A stretch of DNA of 64,000 nucleotides from Alphaproteobacteria bacterium. Its GTDB lineage: Bacteria; Pseudomonadota; Alphaproteobacteria; Paracaedibacterales; VGCI01. A program made the position numbers and the translations under genes. This document shows positions 44,283 through 64,000 of the stretch, piece after piece (the stretch's first letter is position 1; the number at the start of each line of letters is the position of its first letter). Under the pieces are notes generated by a model, which saw only the letters and a program-made list of their open reading frames with translations, was not told the DNA's origin and did not search any database. The stretch covers positions 16,935-80,934 of the forward strand of contig JAIESE010000020.1 in assembly GCA_019746225.1 (NCBI GenBank), in the 5' to 3' direction.

Positions 44283-46112
44283 TTGATTCGGGGCACGCAA
44301 GATCCTTTTCTGACATATTACCACCGGGAGCTGACCTATTTGCGTCAGGCGGGGGGGATTTTTGCCAACAAGCACCCCAAAATCGCTCGCCGACTAGGGA
44401 TAAACCTTGAGGAGTCGCCGGATCCGCATATGGAACGTCTTCTCGAGTCGTTTGCCTTTCTCACAGCCCGCCTCAGTCAGGAAATCGATGATCGGTTGCC
44501 CCAGATATCAGCGGCCCTTCTGGGCGTGTTGTATCCGCAGCTCATCAATCCGATACCCGCCATGGCCATTGCTCATTTTGAAGCGGATGCAACCAAAGGA
44601 TCCTTGACGACGGGGTTTCCTATCCCCAAGGAAACGCCGTTGTTTACAAATGCGGAAGAAGGCGTCTCCTGTCGGTTTCGAACTGTTTATGACATTACTT
44701 TGTGGCCAATTTCCGTAACCCACGTGGACTTTGTCCAAAAGGATGCTTATGACATTAAAGGATATGGGCCAAAAGTCCCCTGGTATTTGCGCATTCGCCT
44801 CAAAGCCCAGGAAGGGCTCCTTTTTTCCGATCTCGCCTTAAAGAGGCTTTCCTTCCATCTCAATGGAGATCGCTTGCTCACTTTTGAGATGTATGGGGCA
44901 ATATTTGGGCAACATACCCCCCATGTTTTGGTGTCGACAGATCAACAGACGGCTACCCCGTTACCCATGCCATCCATAACACCTGTGGGGTTTGATGATA
45001 ATCATTTGATTTTGCCCCACCCGGGTCATGCCCACCCCGCTTACCAATTGATTCAGGAATATTTTCACTTTCCGGAAAAGTACTTATTTTTCACCGTTGA
45101 AAATATTTCTACCGCAGGGGTGGGGAATGAACTGGATCTCCTTATTGCCATAGAAGATACGGAAGTCGTTGGAAACATTAAGCTTCATCCCCGGAATTTT
45201 CTGTTAGGGTGCACACCCATGGTGAACCTCTTTCGACGGACAACAGATCCCCTTCGCCTGGATCATCGGCATACTGAATATCGGTTGGTGCCTGATCAGC
45301 GTCGGGAGAGAACGACGGAGATTTATAGTATTAATCGGATTATGGCGACTGTAGAGGGCCAACCAGATCCGATCGAGTTTCAACCTTATTTCTCTTTTAA
45401 TCACAAAACCACTCAGCTCAGACCCGATGCGAACAACACCTCGTTTTGGATTGCCAGACGGGCCGCTTCGTTGCAACAAAATATGCCCGGTACAGAAATG
45501 TTTTTGACCTTTGTCGACCTCGACTTCAATCCCAAGTTGCCTGCTGTTCAAACCATATATGGGGAAACTTTGTGTACCAATCGCTATTTGGCGGACCAGA
45601 TGACGGCAGGAACCTTGATGCAAATTGAAGATCGCGCCCCCATTGCTCAAATCGTGTGCTTGGATAAGCCAGTTTCGCAAGTTCATTCCCCAACGGACGG
45701 CGAAACTCTGTGGCGCTTGATCTCTCACCTGTCCGTGAATCATCTCTCCTTGACGCAAGGAGAGTCATCTTTGGAGGCTCTCAAGGAAATGCTGCGGCTT
45801 TATGCCGGTCCAGAATCGATTTATCGCCATGGGGAGATTAATGCCATCCAAGCGCTTTCGGCGAAGCCAATTGTCCGGCGCGTGGGTGATCAAGCCTGGC
45901 GCGGATTTATTCCAGGCGTTGAGGTTTCCTTGACCATGAATGAAGAAGAATTGGCCGGGAGCAGCATCTTTTTGATGGGCTCAGTCTTACGGTATTTCTT
46001 TGCCTTACAGGTGTCCTTAAATTCGTTTGTCGAGGTTGTACTTTACAGCCCCCGACGTAAAGGTGAGTGGATGAGATGGCAACCGTTGCCCGGCGAACAG
46101 ATTCTTCTTTAG
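44283..46112 (+). CDS. tssF: Type VI secretion baseplate protein TssF
   Basis: TssF (VasA/ImpG) is part of the TssEFGK baseplate wedge, on which the T6SS tail tube and sheath assemble. The 609-residue protein starts TTG at 44283 with AGAAGGG about 7 bases upstream. It has the family opening DPFLTYYHRELTYLRQAGGIF, HPKIARRLG and DPHMERLLESFAFLTARL, and the C-terminal LTMNEEELAGSSIFLMGSVL segment. It overlaps tssG by 37 bases. No other T6SS genes are in the window. Length is normal. Confidence 0.93.
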   Translation: MIRGTQDPFLTYYHRELTYLRQAGGIFANKHPKIARRLGINLEESPDPHMERLLESFAFLTARLSQEIDDRLPQISAALLGVLYPQLINPIPAMAIAHFEADATKGSLTTGFPIPKETPLFTNAEEGVSCRFRTVYDITLWPISVTHVDFVQKDAYDIKGYGPKVPWYLRIRLKAQEGLLFSDLALKRLSFHLNGDRLLTFEMYGAIFGQHTPHVLVSTDQQTATPLPMPSITPVGFDDNHLILPHPGHAHPAYQLIQEYFHFPEKYLFFTVENISTAGVGNELDLLIAIEDTEVVGNIKLHPRNFLLGCTPMVNLFRRTTDPLRLDHRHTEYRLVPDQRRERTTEIYSINRIMATVEGQPDPIEFQPYFSFNHKTTQLRPDANNTSFWIARRAASLQQNMPGTEMFLTFVDLDFNPKLPAVQTIYGETLCTNRYLADQMTAGTLMQIEDRAPIAQIVCLDKPVSQVHSPTDGETLWRLISHLSVNHLSLTQGESSLEALKEMLRLYAGPESIYRHGEINAIQALSAKPIVRRVGDQAWRGFIPGVEVSLTMNEEELAGSSIFLMGSVLRYFFALQVSLNSFVEVVLYSPRRKGEWMRWQPLPGEQILL

Positions 46113-47182
46113 AAGAGCAAATTGAAAAAACACCCTATGAGTTTGATTTTCATCAAGCGATTCGGTTGTTGGAAAAAATGCGCCCGGAAGCTCACCCCTT
46201 GGGTGAAGGCTCCAATCCCTTAAAAGAGGCGGTGAGTATTGAATCGCGCGTGACGTTGTCTCCTTCGGGCGCAGACATTCAAAGTTTGACCCTTTCCGAA
46301 ACCGACAAACCACCTGTTCTCACCGTAAATTTCGTTGGCCTTGCGGGCATACAAGGACCCCTACCCACGCCCTATACGGAACTCCTGATGGAGCGCTTGC
46401 GTCATAAAGACACGAGCTTTAAAGATTTCCTCGATATGTTCAATCATCGCCTGGCAAGTTTTTGGCATCGCATGCGCAAAAAAATTGTCTTAGGGATTGC
46501 GCAAGTGCGCCCAGACAAAACGCCCGCCGGGAAAGTCTTCTTAGATTTGGTCGGAATCGAGTCGGAGCCGTTACGCAATCGATTGGCTGTTTCGGATCAA
46601 GCATTGCTCTCTTTTGCTCCCGCCTTTTGGAAGCGCCCGCGATCTATGGTTGGGTTGCAGCGCATGTTGCGGTCTTACTTTGGTTTGCCGATTGTCGTGT
46701 CGCAGTTTCAAGGGGGATGGCAAAGGCCCCCAGAAAAGGATTGGACGCGCATTGGGGTAAGGGAGCTGGCGCAGCATCAAGTGTTGGGGAAATCGGCCGT
46801 GCTCGGGCAGCGATCTTGGCAACAGACGACCGGCATCGCGCTTCATATCCCGCCACTGACCTATAAGCAATACATCAGCTTTCAACAAGAAACAGCTCTG
46901 GAATTTACAGCATTGCGGGACCTGACGTATTTCTATATTGGTTTGGGTCAAACGGTGGATGTCACGTTTGCGGTGCACCGGGAAGAAATTGCCCCGACTC
47001 TCCTCAACCGTCAATTCGGCCTGGGGCGAACAACGTGGATGACCCGAGGCGGCGGCAAAGGCTTTCCCAAAGACCCAGAGGTCCGCATGGTCATGCGGCG
47101 GGCAGAATATACCCCCTTGTCAATTCCAACTATTCCCGAGATGCGTGTCAAATTGTCGACGCGAGAAGAGCTAAAAATCTAA
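46076..47182 (+). CDS. tssG: Type VI secretion baseplate protein TssG
   Basis: TssG (VasB/ImpH) pairs with TssF in the T6SS baseplate. The protein of about 368 residues has the family motifs YEFDFHQAIRLLEKMRP near the N-terminus, GLAGIQGPLPTPYTELLMER, and FLDMFNHRLASFWHR. It starts inside tssF (ATG 46076; GTG 46067 is the alternative), so the two are translationally coupled and probably made in equal amounts. The rest of the T6SS must be elsewhere if functional. Confidence 0.93.
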   Translation: MATVARRTDSSLEEQIEKTPYEFDFHQAIRLLEKMRPEAHPLGEGSNPLKEAVSIESRVTLSPSGADIQSLTLSETDKPPVLTVNFVGLAGIQGPLPTPYTELLMERLRHKDTSFKDFLDMFNHRLASFWHRMRKKIVLGIAQVRPDKTPAGKVFLDLVGIESEPLRNRLAVSDQALLSFAPAFWKRPRSMVGLQRMLRSYFGLPIVVSQFQGGWQRPPEKDWTRIGVRELAQHQVLGKSAVLGQRSWQQTTGIALHIPPLTYKQYISFQQETALEFTALRDLTYFYIGLGQTVDVTFAVHREEIAPTLLNRQFGLGRTTWMTRGGGKGFPKDPEVRMVMRRAEYTPLSIPTIPEMRVKLSTREELKI

Positions 47183-54768: not shown

Positions 54769-55917
54769 TCACTGAAACGGTTTAAAAACCAGGATCGAAA
54801 CCCCCGTTGCAAGAGTAATTTGATCATCTAATTCTAACTTTGCTTGTTTGCCGATTTTGATGAACTCACTCAACGTACGTTCTTGCCCGCCCATGGCCAG
54901 GGCAATGATGTCCGAATCAATCAAAAGACTGCCATCCACAGTTTTGGGGAAGACCTTTTCAATTACGAAAATTCGTCCATTTTGTTGGTCTGATAAAGCA
55001 GTCCGTGTATTTTTCAAAATCGTCACGCAATCCTCATCCTTCCAGTTATGAAGGACCCGTTTAATGGTATAAACATCCGCCGCGGGCACCACTTCAAAGA
55101 AGCTTCCGCCAATCATTTTTACATTTGGCAAAGTACAGTCTTTAACTGTTCCCGCAAGATCGAAAAGGATCCCCTCCAAATTGGGATTCTGCCCTAGCAC
55201 CCGCGATAAGAGACCTCCCGTTCCCCCGCCAATATCGCAATAACTTTTATGCCCTTTGAAAACTTGCGCCCGAGAGACTTCATCATCTTCTCGTTCAGAA
55301 AAGTTTCTCATCCCCTTATTAAACTGCTCCATGGCTTTCGGGTTTTGTTCAAGGTAAGCATAATAATCCATCCCATTCAGTTGATCAAAAGGGGAGTCAT
55401 CATTCGTCAAAGCCAAACCAACCTGCCCTACAGCTTCCCACCTCTTCTTATCCGACTCTTTTGCAATTGCTGGTTGCAGAGAGTTCTCAGCCGTACTGAT
55501 CAGAAGCGAAGAATTTTCATTCAATGAAAAGGTCTCGTCATCATTCATAGTCACAATCTGATGATTGGCAAGAACGCGCATCAGACGCTTCACGGACTCT
55601 GCTTTGAAACCCTTTCCAGATGCTATATCTGCCGCTGTTTTTGGCTTTCCGTCTTGAAGCACATCAAAAAGTTTGTGCTCTGACGCTACATGAAGCGCCC
55701 TTGCGGGAAGGTACCCATAGGCGACCCGTCGCACCACTTGATCCGGTTTCTGATTAAGCGAGATATCCATTGCTTTTGGACAGCTCAACACACCAAGCGT
55801 AAATCCTGTTACCATCAAATTTCTCACAATCTTTGTCACAAGACTTTGCTCTGGCGAATGATTCTTCGCAGTCCTTCCTGTATCTGTATTAAGTGTTATA
55901 GATGTTTTCATCGTCAT
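54769..55917 (-). CDS. SAM-dependent O-methyltransferase (acetylserotonin/hydroxyneurosporene type)
   Basis: The 382-residue protein has a winged-helix dimerisation domain (LFDVLQDGKPKTAADIASG, LMRVLANHQIV) and a SAM domain with DIGGGTGGLLSRVLGQNP, then IKRVLHNWKDEDCVTIL, whose His is the usual general base. This is the plant-type/hydroxyneurosporene O-methyltransferase family acting on small hydroxylated molecules. The N-terminus has an extra 60 residues with a hydrophobic stretch (LMVTGFTLGVLSCPKAMD), unusual for a cytoplasmic enzyme; a later start is possible. It is divergent from a TetR gene with operator-like repeats between. Confidence 0.85.
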   Translation of the reverse strand: MTMKTSITLNTDTGRTAKNHSPEQSLVTKIVRNLMVTGFTLGVLSCPKAMDISLNQKPDQVVRRVAYGYLPARALHVASEHKLFDVLQDGKPKTAADIASGKGFKAESVKRLMRVLANHQIVTMNDDETFSLNENSSLLISTAENSLQPAIAKESDKKRWEAVGQVGLALTNDDSPFDQLNGMDYYAYLEQNPKAMEQFNKGMRNFSEREDDEVSRAQVFKGHKSYCDIGGGTGGLLSRVLGQNPNLEGILFDLAGTVKDCTLPNVKMIGGSFFEVVPAADVYTIKRVLHNWKDEDCVTILKNTRTALSDQQNGRIFVIEKVFPKTVDGSLLIDSDIIALAMGGQERTLSEFIKIGKQAKLELDDQITLATGVSILVFKPFQ

Positions 55918-57794: not shown

Positions 57795-59024
57795 ATGGAT
57801 CATAAGACTACGTTTATAACCTTGTTTGCAGTGACGCTTTCTTTCTTCAGTCCCCACTATCTCAATGCGATGGAAGCTGAACGTGTCGTTCATTATTTTT
57901 CTCCCCCTCAACTGGAAGAAGAAAACATTGGCAAGAAGGTGCTTTGTGTTCGCCCAGTCTATAAGGATGCTCTCGATATAACTAAGGAAGAAATTGGGGA
58001 GAAACTGGTTTTTACCAATAGTGGTTATGGCGGATCAGGAATAACCATCGGTGAGGGTGGCGTTGACTACCAATTAGAACAATTTATGAAATTAGACATA
58101 GAGAGACAGACCTCTATTACGGTCTTAGGGGCAGGCTGGATCGGCTCATTGACTGCGCTCAAGCTCTACGCCATGGGGTATAAGAACCTTACAGTTTTTG
58201 CAGATAATCTATCCGATATTCCTTCCTTCAAGGCAGGAGGACTTGTTTTAACGAGTATGGGCCAATTTCCGTCTGAGTTTGAGAGAACACGCGCCATTGA
58301 ATTCGGGATCAATTCGTACCAAAAATTCCAACACGCCCTTGGCCTTGATGACCAGCGTCATCCCTTTATTCCATCAGATGGAGATTTTGTCCGTAGGCTT
58401 CCCTATTATACTTATGAAAAATCCGAAGGTTTAGAACCTTACGTTAAAGCCGGTATCATGAAATCCGCAATTGATGTGAGGTTGAAAATTCTCGAAACGG
58501 GTCTTTCTCATAACCTTTTCTGCTACGAAGAGGGCATATTTGTTAACACGACTTCGGTGCTTCAACACTTTCACGATCTCCTCTTTCGCAAATTTCAAAT
58601 TCCTTTCATAAACCGGTTGGTTACAGATTTTCGGGATATCTCGAGTCCTGTGATCTTTAACTGTGCCGGTGTGCGCGCCGCAGACATGCCCGGAAGGAAG
58701 AACCGAGCCTCCTACATACCCACCCTAGGTCACTTGATTATGGGAAAAGATCAAGAGCCAACCAAGGAAAAAAGTGTCCAAAATTGTATGATCATTGCCG
58801 CTGGAGAAAAAAGTACTTTGGATGGCAAGTATTGCCATACATCCTACTATGGGTTTCCAAAAAGCTATACTTCTGGAGATGACACTTATCAGTTTGTCAC
58901 CGGTGGGACCTATATCCCTGGCGTTTCTGTGAATGAGAAAGGGGAGTTGGCTCAAAACCACTATCCCGAAATGTTCGATGCCGTTTGGGGAAAAGCCAGA
59001 AAATTTTATGGATACAAAGAGTAG
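57795..59024 (+). CDS. Secreted DAO-like FAD oxidoreductase, apparently circularly permuted (paralogue 1)
   Basis: The protein of 409 residues has a signal peptide (MDHKTTFITLFAVTLSFFSP). It then has CVRPVY (Arg at residue 53) and TNSGYGGSGITIGEGGV (residues 75-90), which match the C-terminal substrate-Arg and flavin signature of D-amino-acid oxidases (GFRP...HNYGHGGxGxTxxxG). Only after these come the Rossmann motif GAGWIGS (residue 112) and AGGL, then FNCAGVRAADM and TGGTYIPG near the end. The order is thus permuted relative to the family. FAD binding and amine oxidation are inferred. Starts at 57780 or 57789 are possible. A paralogue follows. Confidence 0.75.
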   Translation: MDHKTTFITLFAVTLSFFSPHYLNAMEAERVVHYFSPPQLEEENIGKKVLCVRPVYKDALDITKEEIGEKLVFTNSGYGGSGITIGEGGVDYQLEQFMKLDIERQTSITVLGAGWIGSLTALKLYAMGYKNLTVFADNLSDIPSFKAGGLVLTSMGQFPSEFERTRAIEFGINSYQKFQHALGLDDQRHPFIPSDGDFVRRLPYYTYEKSEGLEPYVKAGIMKSAIDVRLKILETGLSHNLFCYEEGIFVNTTSVLQHFHDLLFRKFQIPFINRLVTDFRDISSPVIFNCAGVRAADMPGRKNRASYIPTLGHLIMGKDQEPTKEKSVQNCMIIAAGEKSTLDGKYCHTSYYGFPKSYTSGDDTYQFVTGGTYIPGVSVNEKGELAQNHYPEMFDAVWGKARKFYGYKE

Positions 59025-59093
59025 TGCCTCACTCAGACAAGAGTGGGAGATGGTATGCTTCAACATAATAGCGAAAGTTATTCAAATAATTAC

Positions 59094-59128
59094 GTCATTG
59101 CTACGTCGCATTCGCTCCTCGCAATGAC
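59094..59128. repeat. Mini copy of the GTCATTGCGAG palindrome
   Basis: A 35-base palindrome with the GTCATTG and CGCTCCTCGCAATGAC ends of the longer copies but no long centre. It lies between the two oxidase paralogues. Confidence 0.75.
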
Positions 59129-59209
59129 AGAGTTAGCACCCTCTTTAAAATCCCAAGCGCTCCTAGTCCGACCATTTAACTTACACTCCTATCCAACACA
59201 AAACGTTTT

Positions 59210-59246
59210 AGCCGACCTAGGGAATGTACCTAGGTCGGGCTTTTAG
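59210..59246 (+). terminator. Terminator between the oxidase paralogues
   Basis: A perfect 10-base stem CCGACCTAGG / CCTAGGTCGG with a 7-base loop, followed by GCTTTT. It lies about 190 bases after the first oxidase gene. The 330-base gap 59025-59354 has this terminator, the mini repeat and no gene. Confidence 0.8.
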
Positions 59247-59354
59247 GGAATTCCCTGGGTAGTTTCTGTCCTCCCTTTTTAATAACCATCCAATCGATAC
59301 TCTCGAAAACATGAAGAGTTATCGTTTGTTAATTATTAAAAAGGAACAGTTTAT

Positions 59355-60611
59355 ATGATAGTATTTAATAAAAATATTTCAAAAATTATTTTCACCGTTA
59401 CTCTTTCTCTCTTAAATTCTTATGCCCTCAAGGCTATGAATTCTGAGGGAACGGAAGAACGGCCGGTACATTATTTTACAGCGCCACAACTGGAAGATAC
59501 GAACAGAGGTGAGGAAGTGTATTGTGTCCGCCCTGTCTTTTCAGGATCCTTGGATATGAGTTCTGAAGTGATTGGGGGAAAACACGTTATTTCCACAAGT
59601 GGTTTCGGGGGATCAGGGATCACCCTTTCGGAAGGGGCCGTTGAATATCAAATACAAAAGTTTATAACCGAGGTCCTTCCAACATTAAAAAGGGGCAGAG
59701 AAACGCCTATAACTGTGCTGGGCGCAGGGTGGGTAGGCTCATTGACTGCTCTCCATCTGCAAAAAGAGGGCTTTAAAAACCTCCATATCATTGCTGAGAG
59801 CTTGGAACGGATAACTTCCTTTAATGCAGGGGGCCTCATTGCCCCAGTGTCAATGCAAAACTCTCCCGAATTCCAAGTCCTTGTAGATCAATTCGGCGTT
59901 AATGCCTACAAAGGATATCGAGATGCGCTTGCAGGGCGCCATCCATTTATCAACGCGGACAATGGGCAATCTGTCATGCCCGTTCCCTATTATACAGGGG
60001 ATCGAGAAAATTCTGGGCTAGAACCATATGTTACGGCTGGCGTGATGCGCCCCGCCAAAGATATAAAATTGCAAATACTCGACACAGAAGTATCCCATGA
60101 TCTTGTTTGTTATGAAGATGGTATTTTTGTGAATACACCTTCCGTTCTCCAGCAATTTTATGGCCAACTCTTCAGGAAATTTCAAATTCCATTAACGCAA
60201 CGGCTCATAACAGAGTTCTCTGAGATTGAAGACTCAGTGATCTTTAATTGTGCAGGGATACGCGCAGCAGATATGAAAGAGAGAAGACAAATGCGTGATT
60301 CCTACCGTCCAACTCTGGGTCATCTAATCATGGGAAAAGATCAAGAGCCAACCAAGGAATTAAGTGTCAAAAACAGTATGATCCTAACCTATGGGGAAGA
60401 GACAAAAACCCCTGATGGCTTGAATTGCACAGATTCATTCTATAGTTTTCCAAAGCATTATGGGCCTTACGATGTTGTGTTTGGAGGGACCTTTATCGAA
60501 GGGGTTGCGGTCGATCACACAGGTAAACTCGACCCAAAATATAAGTATCCTGAAAAACTCGACCTGATATGGGATTCAACTCGGAAGTTTTTTGGAGCTT
60601 CACGTATGTAA
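59355..60611 (+). CDS. Secreted DAO-like FAD oxidoreductase, apparently circularly permuted (paralogue 2)
   Basis: The 418-residue protein has a signal peptide (MIVFNKNISKIIFTVTLSLL). CVRPVF (Arg59) and HVISTSGFGGSGITLSEG (77-94) stand before GAGWVGSLTALHL (123-135) and AGGLIAP, then FNCAGIRAADM, TLGHLIMGKDQ and VVFGGTFIEGV near the end. The residues fit the D-amino-acid oxidase pattern almost throughout, but the C-terminal family segment is N-terminal. The typical HNY before the glycines is STS here. AAGGA precedes the ATG. Paralogue 1 is 330 bases upstream, and a strong terminator follows. Substrate is unknown. Confidence 0.75.
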   Translation: MIVFNKNISKIIFTVTLSLLNSYALKAMNSEGTEERPVHYFTAPQLEDTNRGEEVYCVRPVFSGSLDMSSEVIGGKHVISTSGFGGSGITLSEGAVEYQIQKFITEVLPTLKRGRETPITVLGAGWVGSLTALHLQKEGFKNLHIIAESLERITSFNAGGLIAPVSMQNSPEFQVLVDQFGVNAYKGYRDALAGRHPFINADNGQSVMPVPYYTGDRENSGLEPYVTAGVMRPAKDIKLQILDTEVSHDLVCYEDGIFVNTPSVLQQFYGQLFRKFQIPLTQRLITEFSEIEDSVIFNCAGIRAADMKERRQMRDSYRPTLGHLIMGKDQEPTKELSVKNSMILTYGEETKTPDGLNCTDSFYSFPKHYGPYDVVFGGTFIEGVAVDHTGKLDPKYKYPEKLDLIWDSTRKFFGASRM

Positions 60612-60665: not shown

Positions 60666-60692
60666 TTGACTTTTTTAGATAAATAATATAGT
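60666..60692 (+). promoter_or_regulatory. Promoter-like element B, shared with 57721
   Basis: TTGACT (60666-60671), 15-base spacer, TATAGT (60687-60692, five of six -10 consensus). It matches the element before the first oxidase gene, including spacing. If used, transcription starts near 60699, which supports ATG 60736 as the start of the downstream gene. Confidence 0.55.
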
Positions 60693-60735
60693 GTGTTCTT
60701 CTTTATCATATGAAAATAAAAAGCAAATTAATGAC

Positions 60736-63700
60736 ATGCTGAATTCGCATAAAATATATAGTCATGACTTAACAAAGATTAATGATATAGCATTTTCTCG
60801 TCGAGAAATTGAAGTCATTTCTTTTTTGATTAGTGGACGATCTGCTAAGAAAATAGCCTCTATTTTGAATATCTCTCCCAAAACAGTTGAGTTCCATTGC
60901 GCACGCATCATGCAAAAACTGTCTTGCAACTCTCGAGAAAGCATTATCGATTTTGTGGAAAAGTCTCCCCAATATCATACCTTAAAAACTTATCATACCC
61001 GTCTTATTGCAGAAATCCTATTTGAGGATTTGTTGAAAAAACTACCCGAACCATCTGAGACAGAAACCGCTGTATATGTTTGGACGTCCAAAGATCATTT
61101 GGAAGAATTAGCTCATTTGAAAAAGCATTTGAAATCAGCAAAATTCAAACTCACATCTGTCAATGTGGGTGAAGCAGGAAGCCAGCTACAAAGTTTGTTC
61201 CAAAACAAAGAAGGCACGCTCCTTAAAATCGAAGGGGTGAATGCCACTACAAATAATGAAATTTCGACTCTTTTTTTAGATGAGTCAGCTTTGCCACCAG
61301 ATGCGTTAAAAAACATATGTTATAATACATTAATTGTTGAAACTGTTCATTTCGATGACTATTTCACTTTATTCCTCTCCGTCCTTAAGGTGTTTTTTTC
61401 AAAGAGTCTGCTTAATTCGTTGTTTGGTGATTTTGTTAAGCACCATTTATCTCATAAAAATCAGAACCATACAAAACACCAGGAGAGGAGGTTCAGCGCT
61501 TCTTTAAGATTTTCATCTCAGCTGAGAAAGACCTTTTCCAAAAATTCCTCCTGTGCGATCTTGATTGGAATGTTGATTTTAGGTTGTGTCACGTCACTTT
61601 TATTAGTCAACTTCTGGAAAAATATACCCACTAATGCAGCAGCCCCCACCCGATTAATTTCTGAGCTATATCTTCCCCCAGAAGACCATCTTCTGAAACG
61701 TCAAAAATTACTCTTAAAGATTAAGGAGAGTTTTAACGCCCCCAATAAAATTCAAACAACATTGCTACAGGGTATCGGTGGCTCAGGGAAAACTACTTTG
61801 GCTCGTCAATTTGCCCGTTCGAGTTCTTCAGAAATTATTTGGGAAATCAATGCTGAAACGAAAGACACTTTAATAAAATCCTTCGAAAGATTCGCTCGAG
61901 CGATCTATAATTCAGAATCCGATGTGAAAGCCTTAGCAGAGCTAGATGAGTTAAAAAGAGATGAGTTTCGAGAAGAAAAACTCATGACATTTATCAAGGA
62001 AAAACTAAGGCATCATCCGAACTGGTTTTTGATATTTGACAATATCGAGAACTTTCCCGCCCTCCAAAACTATATACCCAATGACAAAGACGCCTGGGGA
62101 GTTGGCTGTGTTTTGTTAACATCGAGGGATCGAAACATACAAATGAACAGTATCGTTCAGCACACAGTTGAGATTGGAGAGCTGAATGAATCAGAAAGAT
62201 TGTCCCTATTTCTCACAATGTCAGGGAAAAAATCACTCTCAAATTCTGAAGAAAAAATGCGTCTCTTGAAATTTTTAGAGGAGGTCCCTCCTTATCCTCT
62301 AGATATATCTCTTGCCGCAAAATACCTTATGACGGCAAATATTTCTTATGAGCAATACGTAAAGAATTTGTCCGAATCAAAAGCTGATTTTATTGACCTA
62401 CAAAATAGCATTTTGGTAGATTCCGGTTCATACAAAATAAATCGTCTTCATATTGTTGCCCTTACATTAGATAAACTTTTGAAGGAAAATGAAGGGTTTG
62501 CAGACCTTCTATTGTTTATATCTTTAATTAATTCTCAAAACATCCCAAGAGAATTGCTCACACACCATCAGAACTCTGTTGCGGTCGATAATTTTATTTA
62601 CCAAGCAAAGAAATCCTCTCTTGTATCTGAAGATGAGACGTTGGCATCTTCCCCTCAATCAACCTTATCGATGCATCGAACGATTCAGAAAATTTCCCTC
62701 GCTTATCTGAAGAAGAAAATCCCCCCGCAGGAAGTTCAGGGTCACATCCTCGAAATTTCTAACACACTCAATACTTATTTAAGTCAAGAGATTGAAAAGG
62801 AATATGCACCAACACTCATTCCTCTCACCGCCATTTGCGAATCATTTCTTGAAAACGGGGAGGTGATTCCCGTCCCCATGATGAATTCTCTTAAAATCGG
62901 ATTGGGTTGGACATATGGGTACCTCGGTGATTATGGACGAGCCAAGCAACTTCTTGAGCACACTCTAAAAGACTTGGAAGGGAACGATTCACAAGACCTG
63001 CTGCTAACCTCCCGAGCTCTTGCCTATCTTGGAAACATCTATAGAGAAATTGGTGATTTTAAGGGGGCACTAAAATTTTTAAAAGACAGTCAGACGATAT
63101 TACTTAATCATTTTTCGCAAAAGGGGAGCGATCTTGGTTTTGTTTATGCCAACCTTGGATACATTCAGAATAATTTGGGAAATAATGATCAAGCAAAAGG
63201 TTTGTTAGAAGAAGCTCTTCACCTTTATAGAACACATGTGCCGGATAATCATCTCGGTATCGCAAGAGCCCTTGGGTACTTAGGATATGTTCATAAGGGG
63301 TTGGGAAATTACGCAAGAGCTCTGGAGCTTCTCGAGGAAAGTCAAGATTATTATACCAAGCACTCCCCTGATAATAGGGACTTGGTTCGTGTTTTGATGG
63401 AGCTTGGTAGCATTTATAAAGAACTTGGTTATTTAGAGAAGTCTAAAACGCTTCTTGAAGAAAGCCTCCATCTTTATAAAAGACACCTCCCCCTTAACCA
63501 TACAAATGTGGCTTGGGTTTTGGGACGCCTTGGAGGGGCTTATTTAGAACTAAATGAAATGAGTAAAGCCAAAGATGCTTTGGAGAAAAATTTAAAAGGA
63601 TATTCAGAAGATGGTGAGGATAATCAAGAAAATATAACCAAAATCTTTATTGATTTATCACATCCAATTTTAACGAACCAGTTTCCAGCCAAACAGAAAA

Positions 63701-64000
63701 ATACAGAAAGAACTGGCAGCTATCTTGGCTATAATTATAGAAGTTTGGGGGATTATGTTAAAGCCAAAGACATTTTAGAGAAAGGCCTCCAAACCTATAA
63801 AATGCACTTCCCACAAAACCACATTGGCATTGCACGTGATTTAAGCTTGCTGGGATGCGTTCATAAAGAATTAGGGAATTACACAAAGGCTGTTGCTCTT
63901 CTTGAGGAGAGTAAAAAATATTATAAGCAATATTTTCCAGACCACTTTATGGAACTCGTAAGCGTTATCATAGGCCTTGGAACATCCTATAAAGAACTGG
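60736..64000 (+). CDS. LuxR-type HTH - hydrophobic segment - NB-ARC-like ATPase - TPR regulator (3' end outside window)
   Basis: The frame is open to the window edge, over 1,088 residues. Residues 20-78 are a LuxR-type HTH (FSRREIEVISFLISGRSAKK, ILNISPKTVEFHCARIMQKL). Residues 273-295 are hydrophobic (CAILIGMLILGCVTSLLLVN) after a basic stretch, like a membrane anchor. Walker A GIGGSGKTTLARQ is at 346-358 and Walker B WFLIFDNIE at 430-438, followed by VLLTSRDRN, the NB-ARC sensor 1 pattern. From about 719 on, TPRs of kinesin-light-chain type repeat (LGNYARALELLEESQDYY). Start is ATG 60736; GTG 60691 is in the promoter-like element. It is a STAND-type signal transducer; the signal is unknown. 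Confidence 0.88.
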   Translation, partial: MLNSHKIYSHDLTKINDIAFSRREIEVISFLISGRSAKKIASILNISPKTVEFHCARIMQKLSCNSRESIIDFVEKSPQYHTLKTYHTRLIAEILFEDLLKKLPEPSETETAVYVWTSKDHLEELAHLKKHLKSAKFKLTSVNVGEAGSQLQSLFQNKEGTLLKIEGVNATTNNEISTLFLDESALPPDALKNICYNTLIVETVHFDDYFTLFLSVLKVFFSKSLLNSLFGDFVKHHLSHKNQNHTKHQERRFSASLRFSSQLRKTFSKNSSCAILIGMLILGCVTSLLLVNFWKNIPTNAAAPTRLISELYLPPEDHLLKRQKLLLKIKESFNAPNKIQTTLLQGIGGSGKTTLARQFARSSSSEIIWEINAETKDTLIKSFERFARAIYNSESDVKALAELDELKRDEFREEKLMTFIKEKLRHHPNWFLIFDNIENFPALQNYIPNDKDAWGVGCVLLTSRDRNIQMNSIVQHTVEIGELNESERLSLFLTMSGKKSLSNSEEKMRLLKFLEEVPPYPLDISLAAKYLMTANISYEQYVKNLSESKADFIDLQNSILVDSGSYKINRLHIVALTLDKLLKENEGFADLLLFISLINSQNIPRELLTHHQNSVAVDNFIYQAKKSSLVSEDETLASSPQSTLSMHRTIQKISLAYLKKKIPPQEVQGHILEISNTLNTYLSQEIEKEYAPTLIPLTAICESFLENGEVIPVPMMNSLKIGLGWTYGYLGDYGRAKQLLEHTLKDLEGNDSQDLLLTSRALAYLGNIYREIGDFKGALKFLKDSQTILLNHFSQKGSDLGFVYANLGYIQNNLGNNDQAKGLLEEALHLYRTHVPDNHLGIARALGYLGYVHKGLGNYARALELLEESQDYYTKHSPDNRDLVRVLMELGSIYKELGYLEKSKTLLEESLHLYKRHLPLNHTNVAWVLGRLGGAYLELNEMSKAKDALEKNLKGYSEDGEDNQENITKIFIDLSHPILTNQFPAKQKNTERTGSYLGYNYRSLGDYVKAKDILEKGLQTYKMHFPQNHIGIARDLSLLGCVHKELGNYTKAVALLEESKKYYKQYFPDHFMELVSVIIGLGTSYKEL

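Follow-up and report, generated by a model that had tools for sequence, protein, structure and literature searches.

Tandem genes for putative flavoproteins of an alphaproteobacterium belong to a circularly permuted family related to D-amino-acid oxidase

D-Amino-acid oxidase (DAAO; EC 1.4.3.3; human and pig structures 2du8 and 1an9) is a textbook flavoenzyme, and its described relatives include D-aspartate oxidase (DASPO; EC 1.4.3.1) and ThiO/glycine oxidase (TIGR02352), the latter a member of the same superfamily. In the canonical order, a Rossmann strand is followed by the body of the protein, by a GGT strand with its helix and, at the end, by a segment carrying the RP...HNYGHGG residues. 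Here we focus on two adjacent genes, A and B, in a stretch of 64,000 nucleotides (hereafter the window; contig JAIESE010000020.1) from an alphaproteobacterial assembly of 2.38 Mb (GCA_019746225.1), whose source is probably a Paracaedibacterales/Holosporales-like endosymbiont of protists. Their products almost certainly adopt the DAAO fold in a circularly permuted order, in which the last fifth appears to have moved to the front and the chain is cut at about DAAO residue 272. The same permutation separates their family from D-aspartate oxidase, whose human structure 6rkf is the best or tied structural match of one permuted relative, L072. Prokaryotic DAAOs of canonical order (L108-L112, L113 and L114 from actinobacterial plasmids, L115 from a haloarchaeon, L136 from an alphaproteobacterium, and L231 from a Burkholderia glumae plasmid) have the motifs G-[LF]-RP ... 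HNY[GA]HGGxG or near variants, NC-G and GG in common with the permuted family, but unlike in that family their signature is C-terminal. The ThiO-like proteins that were read are likewise of canonical order and lack the HNYGHGG signature; TIGR02352 matches 52 of 53 proteins in a permuted-family alignment at E 1e-5, and B (28.1 bits) and A (19.9 bits) stay below its cut-off of 250.8 bits. Both proteins have the FAD Rossmann motif GxGxxG and the DAO body of DAAO and DASPO, but since the canonical order and the HNYGHGGxGxT signature both fail, they are best placed outside DAAO proper, in a permuted branch related to it.

Both reading frames are present and open on the forward strand: gene A at 57795..59021 (409 amino acids counted from the ATG at 57795, with further in-frame starts upstream; stop codon to 59024) and gene B at 59355..60608 (418 amino acids; stop codon to 60611). 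Each begins with a putative Sec-type signal peptide, recognized by eye, which in A comprises residues 1-25 (57795..57869, ending in HYLNA before ME) and in B residues 1-27 (59355..59435, ending in YALKA before MN); the predicted structure of B has a pLDDT of 51-57 over residues 1-30. According to profile comparison, the C-terminal part of canonical DAAO corresponds to about residues 37-104 in A (57903..58106, with CVRP at 57945-57956 and GYGGSGIT at 58023-58046) and to residues 44-116 in B (59484..59702, with CVRP at 59523-59534 and GFGGSGIT at 59601-59624). The body follows at residues 106-409 in A (58110..59021, canonical DAAO 1 to about 270, Rossmann GAGWIG at 58128-58145) and at residues 117-418 in B (59703..60608, human DAAO 1-272, GAGWVG at 59721-59738). 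Motifs therefore start at residues 51 (CVRP), 77 (GYGGSGIT), 112 (GAGWIG), 289 (NCAG), 354 (FPK) and 370 (a single GGT) in A, and at 57, 83 (GFGGSGIT), 123 (GAGWVG), 298, 365 and 377 in B. The order is the same in both: a signal-like stretch, CVRP, G[YF]GGSGIT some 26 residues further along, a helix, GAGW[IV]G, then NCAG...LGHLIMGK...FPK...GGT and a last helix. The initial annotation had placed CVRP and G[YF]GGSGIT ahead of the Rossmann motif in this way, and its positions are confirmed. The two proteins are 52% identical over 411 columns, and dN of about 0.36 against dS of about 2.6, the latter near saturation, gives a dN/dS of about 0.14, which points to purifying selection. Among the 16 matching genomes of 144 searched with B, only this one carries the tandem pair; one of four congeners matched, with a single copy (L010). 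Between the two genes lies a partly palindromic, repeat-like stretch (59085-59130; cattgctacgtcgcattcgctcctcgcaatgaca).

The same annotation had read both proteins as circularly permuted relative to DAAO, which is supported by rotation against a canonical profile, rotated searches of Pfam and PDB sequences, predicted structures and relatives. The canonical reference comprises seven bacterial DAAOs of canonical order (L108-L110, L112-L114 and L136; profile of 322 columns, HMM of 318 columns), and its columns from about 256 to 318 are the part that stands first in the permuted proteins. In native order, the window group (A, B and L010) aligns to columns 4-256 with a score of 95.5, and after the rotation that had been proposed as a check it covers columns 5-309 and scores 118.9. 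The N-terminal segment of this group alone matches canonical columns 256-309 (score 34.1, E 5.9e-5, probability 65%), against a score of 14.8 and a probability of 0.4% for the reversed segment; with 11 relatives added, the probability reaches 98.2% (E 3.3e-14), against 0.5% for the reversed control. With close relatives, the window group scores 236.1 rotated, 159.7 native and 161.4 with the segment reversed, and the Tat-type group 450.4, 306.3 and 305.2, its segment profile matching at E 4e-26. Rotation of the profiles yields one collinear full-length alignment, which the control with a reversed segment does not, and chance resemblance of motifs was rejected on that control.

Single proteins longer than 300 residues display the same discontinuity. 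Their body match to the canonical HMM ends at or before column 259 in 97 of 97 cases (65 at columns 240-259, 31 at 190-239, and A at 72), and in 95 of these a second stretch starting at column 246 or later lies upstream, L048 and L010 having none above 5 bits. Rotated L072 finds human D-aspartate oxidase 6rkf as its best PDB match (326 residues, E 1.7e-22) and aligns to Pfam DAO in a single stretch (residues 2-352 of 353, 120.6 bits); rotated L019 and L014 also give one Pfam DAO stretch each. In the structural model of B, residues 117-417 align to human DAAO 1-272 and residues 44-116 are unmatched in this order-dependent alignment. No whole-model match for B was among the 50 structure-search matches listed and, among the matches listed for L072, only those to MnmC begin at residue 14-15; a solved permuted structure may still exist. 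Scans with doubled sequences gave a full-length alignment in a minority of proteins, mostly short ones that carry no signal. Each of 79 relatives has a single G[HYF]GGxG motif, with GxGxxG downstream of it in 78 (the contig of L068 ends first). A second, normally placed signature at the C-terminus, which the initial annotation had named as contrary evidence, was looked for in these 79 relatives and found in none.

A search for homologues, proposed together with that annotation, recovered the permuted order in relatives, but the order proved specific neither to the pair nor to Holosporales-like bacteria and extends over a large family spanning several phyla. A scan of genome contigs with B as sole query gave 27 stretches and no relatives, and a scan of the genome collection with the alignment of relatives matched at least 596 stretches and gave 518 relatives, of which 79 loci were kept; all 79 have the motif at the N-terminus, in a set biased towards permuted forms because a permuted query was used for confirmation. 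A less biased count comes from the HNYGHGG pattern in the DNA of 398 sampled Pseudomonadota genomes, which misses variants such as HNYAHGG: it found 18 sites in 18 genomes, all within near-full-length matches to the permuted profile, and the pattern read backwards found 3. In these genomes the permuted profile matched 21 at E 1e-12, 20 with permuted genes and one (G295) with a ThiO-like protein. The canonical profile matched 37, a number that does not equal a count of canonical DAAOs, since 19 were matched through permuted genes in two swapped pieces. From the other 18, 13 genomes were read (all except G354, G507, G591, G636 and G680), and the HNYGHGG signature was found at none of their 14 places (two in G564), which hold ThiO-like or other DAO proteins. 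Both profile searches scored the best five to six candidates per genome, and rare forms may escape them.

Permuted genes occur in named isolates of Alpha-, Beta- and Gammaproteobacteria, Bacteroidota and Actinomycetota, among them Qipengyuania, Sphingopyxis (S. italica), Sphingobium, Asticcacaulis, Bradyrhizobium, Polynucleobacter, Pseudoxanthomonas, Runella, Dyadobacter, Algoriphagus, Nonomuraea and Herbidospora. For Dependentiae there are metagenome-assembled genomes (MAGs) and one complete genome (L065), and for Acidobacteriota, Planctomycetota and Verrucomicrobiota MAGs only; a closely similar aquatic group that appears under many phylum labels may in part be mis-binned. Among plasmid records, rotated L072 matched 62, mostly in one piece, that is, in canonical order, including 37 records of Burkholderia and 10 of Vibrio, whose proteins were not read; one-piece matches are dominated by B. 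glumae strains and Vibrio, and 4 of the 60 records listed gave two-piece, permuted matches. On the Mesorhizobium plasmid pOM4 (L118:2926-3989), a permuted gene is annotated as two overlapping coding sequences, cut within the Rossmann motif, and has probably decayed. The family is decaying in several genomes from the order of the window, where the relatives L011, L018, L027 and L026 show internal stops, frames that are split or damage to the signature. Loci L028 and L021, also in genomes of this order, represent a third, signal-less permuted type with G[LM]RPYR...HNYGHGGAG on a long branch of its own.

Several results weigh against the permuted reading or against its simplest form. Native matches to Pfam DAO are weak and of partial coverage (A 25.9 bits and B 30.5 bits, at a cut-off of 27.9), rotated B rises to 36.3 bits and is still split into two stretches, and native B matches PDB sequences only in weak Rossmann stretches (best E 0.55); as a single sequence, B appears too diverged to decide the permutation by itself. 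Rotation also adds little Pfam score elsewhere (112.3 to 117.0 for L019, 82.6 to 91.0 for L014), because the two stretches had already been summed before, and the change is from two stretches to one. Genes of canonical order exist in Pseudomonadota as well (L136; L231, with HNYAHGG at its C-terminus). Convergence on glycine-rich motifs, in place of homology between the N-terminal segment and the DAAO C-terminus, is nevertheless very improbable: taken alone, the window group shows a short and diverged similarity, at the probability of 65% given above, but many relatives retain G-x-RP-x-R ... HNYGHGGxG, and the strong segment profile of the Tat-type group stands against reversed controls that fail. 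An assembly or binning artefact in the window has a practically negligible probability, nothing having been found in its favour beyond possible mis-binning behind the taxon labels of the many relatives that come from MAG contigs, whereas isolates (Qipengyuania, Sphingopyxis italica, Polynucleobacter, Runella, Dyadobacter, Nonomuraea and Herbidospora) have the same order; an artefact of one genome was rejected on the grounds that many other genomes carry the permuted order.

The direction of the change was also considered. In a careful tree of 72 proteins, which leaves out L115, two ThiO-like rows and L017, a single branch (66/99, not starred) separates the 56 permuted rows from the others, and A, B and L010 group together (100/99) within a clade of 22 permuted rows (100/99). 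A quick tree of 76 proteins with a ThiO-like root instead nests the canonical clade (96, starred) among permuted rows through joining branches with support of 80-94, unstarred, and on its topology the permuted rows require two changes. It could thus be read as showing that the permuted order is the old one in the DAAO clade and that the canonical DAAO order arose within it; this we regard as improbable, since the outgroups are canonical in order and two changes would be required, and since the careful tree sets the permuted rows apart. The permutation itself is real and apparently old and broad. The breakpoint region shared across the family favours a single event, of which the trees are no proof. 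The earlier proposal that the permutation predates the duplication of A and B was borne out by the rotations, the predicted structures and the relatives.

Conservation of the active site was followed in 57 permuted and 12 canonical rows, numbered as in pig DAAO. The substrate arginine R283 of the RP pair, which corresponds to R59 in B and R69 in L072, is present in 56 permuted rows (H in L029) and in all canonical ones, G310, G312, G313 and G315 in all 57 permuted rows, and H307, N308, Y309, H311 and R286 in 50, 54, 53, 51 and 52 of them, respectively; Y228 occurs in 40, including A and B, with N in L010. Most permuted rows retain the HNYGHGGxGxT signature, of which A and B keep GG-G-T. A has T307, N308, S309, Y311 and Y286, and B has S307, T308, S309, F311 and F286. 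Joint loss of H307, Y309, H311 and R286 is confined to A, B and L010, and the other permuted rows differ at no more than two places (H307 in L012, L014, L037 and L056; Y309 in L012; H311 in L017, L043 and L045; R286 replaced by K in L053 and L054). The caution about catalysis voiced in the initial annotation was justified, as HNY is replaced wholly or in part in the window clade, together with H311 and R286, while A and B retain R283 and Y228. According to one study (PMC9844085), the carboxylate-binding tyrosine of the Tyr228 type is not universal among DAAOs, residues contribute little to hydride transfer in these enzymes, and across a broad set conservation is limited to the fingerprint and the arginine. 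Loss of HNY thus does not by itself imply that activity is lost.

We propose that A and B are tandem duplicates within a natural circularly permuted branch, with new ends between the GGT strand and helix and the strand of the substrate arginine, and a short linker bridging the old ends. We predict the same fold and active-site layout as in canonical DAAO, in which the carboxylate-binding R283 and the glycine-rich flavin loop would come from the moved segment, and Tyr228 and the FAD Rossmann motif from the body. The proteins would be exported, A and B by Sec-like signals and many relatives by signals of a Tat-like or lipoprotein-like kind. With FAD they would oxidize amino acids, probably in the D-form, to imino acids, and either H2O2 would be formed or the electrons would enter the respiratory chain. 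Taken as a whole, this account is probable; segment order, homology, the common breakpoint region, the breadth of the family and the conservation of residues are observed, and export, FAD binding, the reaction and D-specificity are the parts that we infer. The wider permuted family is likely to consist of amino-acid oxidases or dehydrogenases, and its chemistry is expected to be kept, which is uncertain for A and B.

An export signal on a protein of the DAO fold had been considered unusual, and within the permuted family this does not hold. Simple patterns were counted in 98 permuted proteins (including the truncated L060, L062, L068 and L083, without L058, for which no start was found): 67 have a hydrophobic 14-mer upstream of the moved segment, a Tat-like RRx[FLIMVA] lies close to the start in 57, and 37 contain a lipobox-like string. 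Signal-less members exist, for example in Polynucleobacter, the Nonomuraea group and two Dependentiae. In five canonical-order genes with annotated starts, 6-13 residues precede GxGxxG, which leaves these five no room for a signal peptide. A tentative extension would be that an ancient permutation freed the DAAO N-terminus from the Rossmann core, so that signal peptides or lipid anchors could be attached, giving rise to a class of exported D-amino-acid oxidases that outnumbers the canonical form in the sampled Pseudomonadota, with the window clade gaining a new substrate or acceptor. We hold it to be doubtful, slightly the more so as canonical-order genes do occur in Pseudomonadota.

With regard to function, the replacements at H307, Y309, H311 and R286, and in B also at N308, count against a conserved chemistry, and because of them the activity of A and B may be altered. 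The wider family could consist of amino-acid oxidases while A, B and L010 act on another substrate or have a non-catalytic role, a possibility of some weight given that these three alone lost the four residues together, that L010 also lacks Y228 and that G015, a relative from the same order, has an internal stop. R283, the flavin-loop glycines and T317 are, however, kept in all three, Y228 is kept in A and B, and the low dN/dS, with dS near saturation, speaks for constraint. The window pair is slightly more likely than not still to act as amino-acid oxidase or dehydrogenase. A different electron acceptor, as in DadA-like dehydrogenases that feed electrons to the membrane and not to oxygen, is rather unlikely; the frequent signal-like stretches noted above would suit it and H2O2 in the envelope would presumably be costly, but the closest relatives by sequence and structure are oxidases.

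Of 110 immediate neighbours of 60 loci, 103 were scanned (55 and 48 in two sets). The first set is led in frequency by RidA-type proteins (6 of 55; L074, L090, L091, L093, L104 and L105), and the second contains one YjgF-type protein in 48. RidA removes imino acids made by amino-acid oxidases, and such neighbours therefore fit that role. Set against this, all six are from Bacteroidota and represent few independent events, and no RidA adjoins A and B, the single RidA match of the genome lying on another contig (C25). In the aquatic clade, scanning the neighbours against Pfam revealed no common partner. Beside A and B stand TetR-like, EamA-type transporter-like and LuxR/NB-ARC/TPR-like genes, assigned by reading, which give no clear functional hint; the last of these (60691-63999), directly downstream of B and running off the window, combines by eye a LuxR-like helix-turn-helix, a membrane stretch, an NB-ARC-like ATPase and TPR-like repeats. 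On plasmids of Rhizobium (L116:1482-5708) and Bradyrhizobium (L117:1366-5693), a permuted gene lies between genes for an FAD-binding oxidoreductase and a thiamine-pyrophosphate enzyme on the same strand, a possible operon.

No description of a permuted DAAO was found in the literature searched, which left out most subscription papers and preprints, and the string 'permut' is absent from the available parts of PMC9844085 and PMC4699246; with no mention found in this literature, the family appears new. Three annotated plasmid records name the permuted gene merely 'FAD-dependent oxidoreductase'. Profile searches detect this permuted lineage, spread over several phyla, only piecewise; it may account for some of the bacterial DAAO that is missing, and it offers a natural test of whether moving the ends of a protein can open an export route.

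Some minor observations concern other genes. The canonical-order relative on the B. glumae plasmid (L231:580-1746), present in many strains of the species, lies between aminotransferase and quinone oxidoreductase genes. Elsewhere in the window, two adjacent reading frames at 44283-47182 resemble, by eye, the type VI secretion baseplate genes TssF and TssG, and 54769-55917 on the reverse strand encodes a methyltransferase-like protein, by eye of the O-methyltransferase type, whose N-terminal region seems to include a signal or membrane stretch.

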